In this document: in pieces, positions 26,210-27,790 of the stretch
How positions within the stretch are numbered: the stretch's first letter is position 1
Layout: each line of letters begins with the position of its first letter
From: Clostridia bacterium
Lineage (GTDB): Bacteria; Bacillota; Sulfobacillia; DUSP01
NCBI GenBank assembly: GCA_012842575.1
Contig: DUSP01000052.1
Span: 1 to 33,581, forward strand
DNA: 33,581 bases
Reading direction: 5' to 3'
The notes under the pieces: generated by a model
Told to the model about the DNA's origin: nothing
The model's input: only the letters and a program-made list of their open reading frames with translations
Database searches by the model: none
Program-made: the position numbers and the translations under genes

Positions 26210-26992
26210 TTGAGAAGGCTTCTTGAGAAGACTCGCCGCATCAACAGACTGATCCAGAAGTCCGCCGGTCTACCCGTGGATTTCAAGGAGATGGCCATGA
26301 TATTAAGCGAGTTGATTCACGCCAACGTTTATATCGTGAACCGTAAAGGCCAGATCCTCGGATATGCCCTGGTGGACGCTTTTGAGTGCGAGGTATTGGA
26401 AAGACGGGTGTTAGCCTCGGGGTCGTTCCCGGAGGATTACAACGATAAGCTCTTGAAAGTCGACGGCACCAGGCCTAACATCGCCCAGGAAGGAAGACTC
26501 TGCCTCTTTCAAAAAGACATGTCATGCAGCTACGAAGGAAAGGTGACAACGATAGTGCCCATCATAGGGGCCGGGGAAAGGCTTGGAACCCTTCTCTTGG
26601 CGAGATATGACTCAGTGTTTGACGACGAAGACCTCATCCTGGCCGAGTATGCCGCCGCCGTAGTAGGCATGGAGATACTTCGCGGGAAGGCGGAGCGACT
26701 GGAGGAAGAGGCGAGGAAGAAGGCCGCGGTCCAGGTAGCCATCGGGACACTATCCTATTCGGAGCTTGAAGCGGTGCACCACATATTCGACGAACTTTCA
26801 GGGAACGAAGGTTTTCTCGTGGCGTCAAAGATCGCCGACAGGGTTGGGATAACGCGTTCGGTCATAGTCAACGCCCTTCGGAAGTTCGAAAGCGCGGGCG
26901 TCATCGAGTCTCGTTCGCTGGGCATGAAGGGAACGTACATTAAAGTGCTCAATGACAGGCTCGTCGACGAGTTGAAGAAGCTGAGATCCTGA
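26210..26992 (+). CDS. codY: Global nutritional regulator CodY
   Basis: CodY is a GTP- and branched-chain amino acid-responsive DNA-binding protein that represses nitrogen, motility, competence and sporulation genes during rapid growth. TTG at 26210 has GGGAGGGG (26195-26202) 7 bp upstream; the product has 260 residues, the usual length. The N-terminal GAF domain includes [16 protein letters not shown]. The winged helix lies at about 203-240 ([20 protein letters not shown], then [20 protein letters not shown]) and is almost identical to the family signature. It ends the xerC-hslVU unit and directly precedes the riboswitch-controlled flagellar operon. Confidence 0.97.
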
Positions 26993-27082
26993 CCTGGCGG
27001 GTTGGAGGTCACGCGAATAATATACTCAGAAATAATATAGTATCGAAAAATTTGCAGGAGAAAAGAAGGAACTCCGCAACTT

Positions 27083-27110
27083 TTGTCGAAAAGCCGATAT
27101 AAGGTAATAG
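27083..27110 (+). promoter_or_regulatory. Candidate promoter(s) for the flagellar operon
   Basis: TTGTCG (27083-27088), a 16-bp spacer and TAATAG (27105-27110) give a moderate SigA match whose start would fall at about 27117, the first base of the aptamer. Inside the spacer, GCCGATAT (27093-27100) matches the -10 of SigD/sigma-28 flagellar promoters, but no TAAA -35 is found about 15 bp upstream. The AT-rich stretch 27016-27045 before it has several TATA-like words without a good partner. Confidence 0.45.
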
Positions 27111-27116
27111 TGGTAC

Positions 27117-27229
27117 GGGCTTCCAAAGCGATAAAGGCAAACCCGTCGAAAGGCGGGGACGCAAAGCCACGGGTCTAAAGCTTTTTGCCACGATAGCCGG
27201 GCTGCCGAAAGGGGAGGTTCGAAAGAAGT
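27117..27229 (+). ncRNA. Cyclic di-GMP-I (GEMM-I) riboswitch
   Basis: The core of the c-di-GMP-I aptamer is clear. AAAGGCAAACCCGTC begins the P2 arm, capped by a GAAA tetraloop at 27148-27151 and closed by GGCGGG. It is followed by the nearly invariant GACGCAAAGCC (27158-27168), CTAAAG of the tetraloop receptor side (27175-27180), and the P3 arm ending GGGCTGCCGAAAGG (27199-27212). An outer P1 extension can form between GCTTC (27119-27123) and GAAGT (27225-27229). A terminator starts two bases later and flgB follows. TGCCGAAAG (27203-27211) of the aptamer can instead pair with the terminator 5' arm. c-di-GMP-I aptamers ahead of flagellar operons are known, for example flgB of Clostridioides difficile. 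Confidence 0.92.
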
Positions 27230-27230
27230 A

Positions 27231-27280
27231 GGCCTGCTTTCGGGCATTGCTTTGGTGCCCGAAAGCAGGCCTTGTGTTTC
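27231..27280 (+). terminator. Intrinsic terminator of the c-di-GMP riboswitch
   Basis: GGCCTGCTTTCGGGCA (27231-27246) and TGCCCGAAAGCAGGCC (27256-27271) form a perfect 16-bp stem around a 9-nt loop, followed by TTGTGTTT. The T tract is interrupted, but the stem is very strong. Its 5' arm overlaps the region that can pair with the aptamer 3' end (CTTTCGGGCA with TGCCGAAAG, one bulged G), so it is the expression platform of the switch. Confidence 0.9.
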
Positions 27281-27376
27281 GATGTGAAGTCTTTTGAATC
27301 GACGACGGCCGTACCGTGGCCGACGAAAACGGAAAAAGCACAGTCCGGAGGCTTCTTTTTGGGAGGTGACGTCCCT

Positions 27377-27790
27377 TTGGACCTTACGCGTTCCAGCGCC
27401 ATCGATATCTTGAACACCGCTTTGGACGGCGCAGCGTCAAGGCTCTACCTTCTGGCGGATAATGTGGCGAATGTCGATACGCCGGGTTACAAGAGGGTGG
27501 ATACTTCGTTTTTTGACATTTTCAGCGCCATGCTGCGGACACGACCGGCCCTCACCCTTACCCGCACCGATCCTCGCCACTTACCCGAACCTCGCTCGGG
27601 TTCGAGCGGTCCGGAGCCCCGCGTATATACGGATACCAGTACCTCACAGCGGCTTGACGGAAATAACGTTGACATCGAATACGAGATGGCAAAAATGGCG
27701 GAGACCACCGTCCTCTATGACCTCTTGGCAAGGGAACTCTCTTCGAGGATTTCGATGCTGAGGACGGCCGCCTTCGAGGGGAGGAGGTAA
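27377..27790 (+). CDS. flgB: Flagellar basal-body rod protein FlgB
   Basis: FlgB is a proximal rod subunit exported by the flagellar type III system. TTG at 27377 follows GGGAGGTGA (27361-27369) and gives 137 residues beginning MDLTRSSAIDILNTALDGAA, in line with the family. The in-frame start at 27272 would lie in the terminator region and is rejected. The conserved rod motif ADNVANVDTPGYKR is at about residues 26-39, and the C-terminal VDIEYEMAKMAETTVLYDLLA helix is typical. It is the first gene of the riboswitch-controlled operon; its stop overlaps the region of the flgC start. Confidence 0.96.
   Translation: MDLTRSSAIDILNTALDGAASRLYLLADNVANVDTPGYKRVDTSFFDIFSAMLRTRPALTLTRTDPRHLPEPRSGSSGPEPRVYTDTSTSQRLDGNNVDIEYEMAKMAETTVLYDLLARELSSRISMLRTAAFEGRR

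Follow-up and report, generated by a model that had tools for sequence, protein, structure and literature searches.

A c-di-GMP-I-GGC riboswitch of predicted OFF type in the leader of a flagellar operon, and a sigma-H-like promoter element that accompanies it in many relatives

The codY-flgB locus

The window (the whole stretch of DNA that was analysed, 33,581 nucleotides) is a single contig from the 2.47-Mb draft genome of a Clostridia bacterium, and contains the start of a flagellar operon in the order flgB-flgC-fliE-fliF-fliG-fliH (Pfam Flg_bb_rod, FliE, FliF, FliG and FliH in the sequence). Upstream of the flgB leader lie a tyrosine recombinase gene, a proteasome-family (hslV-like) gene, an AAA (hslU-like) gene and codY. 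The features of the leader and its two flanking genes are as follows.

26210-26992, + strand: codY, the upstream neighbour (Pfam CodY 218.9 bits, HTH_CodY 111.7 bits)
27065-27093, + strand: candidate sigma-H-type promoter, degenerate, GAAGGAACT - 11 nt - GTCGAAAAG (AGGA-N17-GAAA)
27117-27124, + strand: 5' strand of the outer P1 helix (strand P), GGGCUUCC, eight pairs with 27213-27220
27127-27210, + strand: c-di-GMP-I-GGC riboswitch aptamer (RF03167, 81.5 bits)
27203-27211, + strand: strand A, the aptamer 3' strand TGCCGAAAG, able to pair with the terminator 5' arm
27213-27220, + strand: 3' strand of the outer P1 helix, GGAGGUUC, partner of 27117-27124
27230-27272, + strand: intrinsic-terminator-like hairpin (strands T and H), 16 perfect pairs, with a weak U-tract after it
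27237-27246, + strand: segment of strand T, CTTTCGGGCA, complementary to strand A (antiterminator)
27361-27369, + strand: Shine-Dalgarno-like GGGAGGTGA of flgB, from the sequence
27377-27790, + strand: flgB (TTG as start codon), which heads the flagellar operon (Pfam Flg_bb_rod)

The position of codY had led a preliminary description of this DNA to suggest joint nutrient and second-messenger control. That suggestion is unsupported, since the best CodY box in the codY-flgB spacer has 5 mismatches, which is at chance level (about a third of shuffled sequences do as well or better), and since the order hslVU-codY-flgB is conserved.

The aptamer and its likely ligand

A cmscan search of the window places RF03167 (c-di-GMP-I-GGC) at 27127-27210 (+) with 81.5 bits (E 4.2e-18) against a gathering score of 59; it is the single Rfam match of the window and falls between the end of codY (26992) and the start of flgB (27377). 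The c-di-GMP-I aptamer described earlier from the letters alone is thus borne out by the covariance model, its class refined to the GGC subtype. All three of the ligand-contact bases G20, A47 and C92 (Vc2 numbering), whose equivalents we take to be G27136, A27163 and C27205, are present, and P2 is capped by a GNRA loop, CGAAAG. The leader folds much better than its shuffles (z -4.6). A secondary-structure model without ligand, blind to tertiary contacts, does not favour the inner P1 pairs. Covariation of the outer P1 helix is strong across 19 leaders, none of 20,000 permutations being equally good.

The base preceding GCAAA, G27136, occupies the G20 position. By pattern reading of the fetched loci, 86 distinct aptamer-like sequences likewise have G there, and the genome encodes two GGDEF and six HD_5 (HD-GYP) matches and no EAL domain match. 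The presence of G20 together with these GGDEF and HD-GYP matches makes c-di-GMP the likely ligand. Two real aptamers have A at position 20: that of the flgB leader in the same-order genome G002 (L136, identical to L035) and L163. A G20A change lets a class I aptamer bind cGAMP (PMC6274999), and with these A20 aptamers the ligand could have changed while the operon stayed the same.

The terminator and the alternative pairing

Downstream of the aptamer, AGGCCTGCTTTCGGGC and GCCCGAAAGCAGGCCT form the 16-bp perfect stem that the preliminary description had reported, closed by an 11-nt loop and with a folding energy of -36.5 kcal/mol. Its 3' tail, TGTGTTTCG, is a poor U-tract, so that the strength of the terminator would come mostly from the stem. 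The hairpin does not begin two bases after the aptamer, as had been thought; the gap is 19 nt from the end of the Rfam aptamer and 9 nt from that of the extended P1. Without overlap between them, aptamer and terminator can both form at once.

The pairing named earlier as the alternative to the terminator exists exactly where it was placed, TGCCGAAAG (27203-27211) forming nine pairs with CTTTCGGGCA (27237-27246) around one bulged G, though in this leader taken alone its strength is no better than chance (p 0.09-0.2). In folding of successively longer RNA prefixes, the A-T helix reaches up to half of the ensemble at RNA end 27244, holds about a third of it around ends 27260-27264 and is gone when the RNA reaches 27272 and the terminator arm is whole; there the aptamer with completed terminator is some 11 kcal/mol better than the antiterminator. 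The switch, if it works, would therefore work kinetically, as has been proposed for the flgB riboswitch of C. difficile discussed below.

Comparison across relatives

The comparative set comprised 61 related genomes, our own included. RF03167 matches were found in 58 of them and FlgB matches in 40, and comparison of coordinates places an aptamer directly upstream of flgB on the same strand for about 32 of those 40, often preceded by codY and hslU. Twenty-six flgB leaders were examined in detail. Every one carries a terminator-like hairpin after the aptamer, with a more or less U-rich tail and a gap of 10-38 nt (median 21), and in none of the 26 do aptamer and terminator overlap.

Over these 26 leaders, the aptamer 3' strand is more complementary to the 5' half of its own terminator than dinucleotide shuffles are (mean z -1.28, Fisher p 3e-7), and the A-T complementarity persists against shuffles when each family is represented by a single leader (n=19, p 4.5e-5). 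Cognate strands also pair better than non-cognate ones (p 0.006) in a later version of the test; a first version, with truncated terminator arms, had given p 0.28, and between the two several terminator bounds were corrected by hand, the tests being refined along the way. Against unrelated terminators the raw pairing energy is distinctive (p 0.0008), the shuffle-corrected contrast weak (p 0.09). Because of that first result and of this last contrast, we regard the antiterminator as moderately supported by sequence comparison for the class, and as a candidate pairing in the window leader itself.

RF03167 aptamers occur in other arrangements as well. Tandem c-di-GMP-I aptamers lie directly upstream of flgB in one relative (L155; G003:C56:58180-58276 and 58378-58471), and further tandems occur in G012:C16 and G030:C277. 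The genome of the window has four more RF03167 aptamers: one (L002, 313-397) precedes a likely secreted protein whose Shine-Dalgarno sequence is masked by a hairpin, a second (L003, 1501-1598) lies upstream of flgF/flgG-like genes, and two with terminators stand before a CheY-like gene (L004, 1501-1594) and before another likely secreted protein (L005, 1501-1599).

As to the lineage itself, G002, a relative of the same order, matches MAG record DYEP01000053 (labelled Symbiobacterium sp. Tomsk_54_12) without a difference over 3.4 kb. In G032, of the same class, the codY-flgB region shares about 77% identity with that of a Candidatus Fermentithermobacillaceae MAG (L100), whose spacer contains a perfect AGGA-N17-GAAT, a c-di-GMP-I aptamer scoring 84.6 bits and a clean terminator. 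From these MAG matches we infer that the class is an uncultured, largely MAG-based lineage of Bacillota.

A sigma-H-like promoter element

The sigma-H consensus is RNAGGAWWW-N11-RNNGAATWW. An element of this kind, AGGA-N17-GAAT, stands just upstream of the aptamer on the sense strand of 12 of the 26 leaders and on the antisense strand of none; its background over all fetched loci of the class is 0.0054 per 100 nt. It is seen in the flgB leaders L116, L118, L119, L122, L125, L126, L136, L139-L141, L143 and L100. Spacings other than N17 are nearly absent save for six cases at spacing 20, which arise because AGGAGGA overlaps itself. The relaxed form AGGA-N17-GWAW occurs in 20 of the 26, including the degenerate copy in the window, which keeps the conserved spacing, has a GAAA box and agrees with 12 of 15 consensus positions (p 0.69 alone, not significant). 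The full consensus fits the flgB leaders with a combined p of 1e-8 against shuffles. The two-box element was first spotted in leaders set side by side and then tested on those same leaders; a combined promoter-aptamer pattern was tested on additional genomes, and in its stricter form it yields 15 sites, spread over 14 of 154 genomes of the class, with 0 for the reversed control. Among aptamers outside the matched flgB set, the element accompanies 10 of 57.

The genome encodes SigH (TIGR02859, 373.1 bits against a cut-off of 294.8) and Spo0A. A classical sigma-H target is spoIIAA; in this genome it has AGGAAATTCTTGGATAACGATGAAT upstream, and a sigma-H-like site is found at 8 of 30 spoIIAA genes of the class. 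The strict sigma-H pattern has only two sites in the genome, neither at flgB, where the window copy is missed because it is degenerate.

Other readings of this stretch fared poorly. A sigma-70 scan gave 0 forward hits upstream of the aptamer in the codY-flgB spacer. As a sigma-D (sigma-28) -10 box, GCCGATAT at 27093-27100 is an octamer found once in the window with about one occurrence expected, and the full pattern TAAA-N-GCCGATA is found 6 times in the genome versus 5 for its reversed control; the octamer follows directly on the candidate sigma-H -10, with no matching -35. For TGTCGAA a Spo0A box was considered, but relatives can have A where it has C (TGTAGAAT), a variation more in keeping with a -10 box.

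AGGA-N17-GAAT is also seen in codY-flgB spacers without a riboswitch, in Pelosinus (L061, L062) and in Negativicutes (L069). The type of promoter may for this reason be older or wider than its pairing with the riboswitch.

Proposed switch and its alternatives

That the leader holds a riboswitch is confirmed; its kind was already known, as was its target, flgB, in Clostridioides difficile. The flgB leader very probably acts as a c-di-GMP-I riboswitch that turns transcription OFF, of the C. difficile type. RNA polymerase would start slightly upstream of 27117, probably at the sigma-H-type promoter. At high c-di-GMP, the aptamer would form, with P1 and the ligand pocket retaining its 3' strand (27203-27220); with that strand held, the terminator at 27230-27272 would form and the flagellar operon be silent. 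At low c-di-GMP, the aptamer 3' strand would be free to pair with the terminator 5' arm (27237-27246), delaying the terminator and allowing polymerase to pass into flgB. The OFF direction, in which high c-di-GMP leads to termination, is likely for the window leader, since the anatomy (an aptamer and a terminator that can coexist), the C. difficile mechanism and the comparative data all fit it.

The opposite direction, an ON switch in which ligand-bound aptamer blocks the terminator and c-di-GMP turns flagella on, has a precedent in the pilM cGAMP riboswitch of Geobacter, and homologous aptamers do work in either direction (PMC9262584). The pilM terminator, however, needs the aptamer's own 3' strand, whereas here the terminator lies 19 nt past the aptamer; the same separation holds in all 26 flgB leaders, and flagella promoted by high c-di-GMP would be contrary to the general rule. 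We consider an ON switch highly improbable. Alternatively, the hairpin could serve chiefly as a fixed attenuator, or to end transcripts reading through from codY, with a small riboswitch effect. The great stability of the stem would suit such a role, as would the U-poor tail and an antiterminator far less stable than the finished terminator. Yet the order of aptamer and terminator is conserved and cognate A-T pairing is found in relatives, and the antiterminator of the C. difficile riboswitch is likewise only transiently stable; this explanation appears very unlikely.

The OFF layout would be unchanged if the aptamer bound another cyclic dinucleotide such as 3',3'-cGAMP. The A found at position 20 of the flgB aptamer in G002, and the acceptance of cGAMP by a class I aptamer with G20A (PMC6274999), lend this some plausibility; the G at 27136, shared with the 86 aptamer-like sequences, and the encoded GGDEF and HD-GYP matches speak against it, and we hold it to be the most improbable of these alternatives. 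A c-di-GMP-responsive OFF switch is the reading we prefer.

The unexpected part is the promoter resembling sigma-H promoters that accompanies the riboswitch in many members of the class. Whether sigma-H is the common driver of the early flagellar operon in this class, whose members carry SigH and Spo0A, with c-di-GMP exercising a veto through the OFF riboswitch (sigma-H AND NOT c-di-GMP), seems to us evenly balanced; if it is, motility would be part of the programme of entry into stationary phase, and the decisions to swim and to sporulate would be linked in one leader. The control of flgB by c-di-GMP, known from one pathogen, would be a deep and stable feature of a large and little-studied group of Bacillota, which offers some 26 natural variants of this switch for comparison.

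Comparison with known systems

The closest counterpart is Cd1, the flgB riboswitch of C. difficile, a proven OFF switch (PMC9262584) at which c-di-GMP causes premature termination (PMC5386303). NMR and modelling of Cd1 describe an alternation between [PA][TH] and P[ATH]: in the bound state aptamer and terminator stand together, and in the free state the aptamer 3' strand pairs with the terminator 5' arm (PMC9262584). Aptamer class, target operon and the strand order P-A-T-H are common to Cd1 and the window, as are an aptamer and terminator able to coexist; the competing A-T antiterminator of Cd1 has a candidate counterpart in the window. The window aptamer differs in being of the Rfam GGC subtype, a member of the RF03167 riboswitches by score (81.5 bits, cut-off 59); no published work on flgB-linked GGC-type riboswitches was found in the literature searched. 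The pilM cGAMP riboswitch of Geobacter metallireducens has a homologous aptamer fold and terminator-based control in common with the window, but is an ON switch whose aptamer and terminator overlap in their strands and whose ligand is cGAMP (PMC9262584).

The promoters also differ. That of Cd1 is a sigma-A promoter (PMC5386303, PMC7438776), and SigH inhibits flagellar genes in C. difficile (PMC5386303), whereas the class described here shows a sigma-H-like element. The nearest likeness to that element is with the sigma-H promoters of C. difficile, which have AGGA, about 17 nt and GAAT or GAAA (e.g. AGAGGATTATGAGAGTTCGTGTAGAAT; PMC7438776, Table 3).
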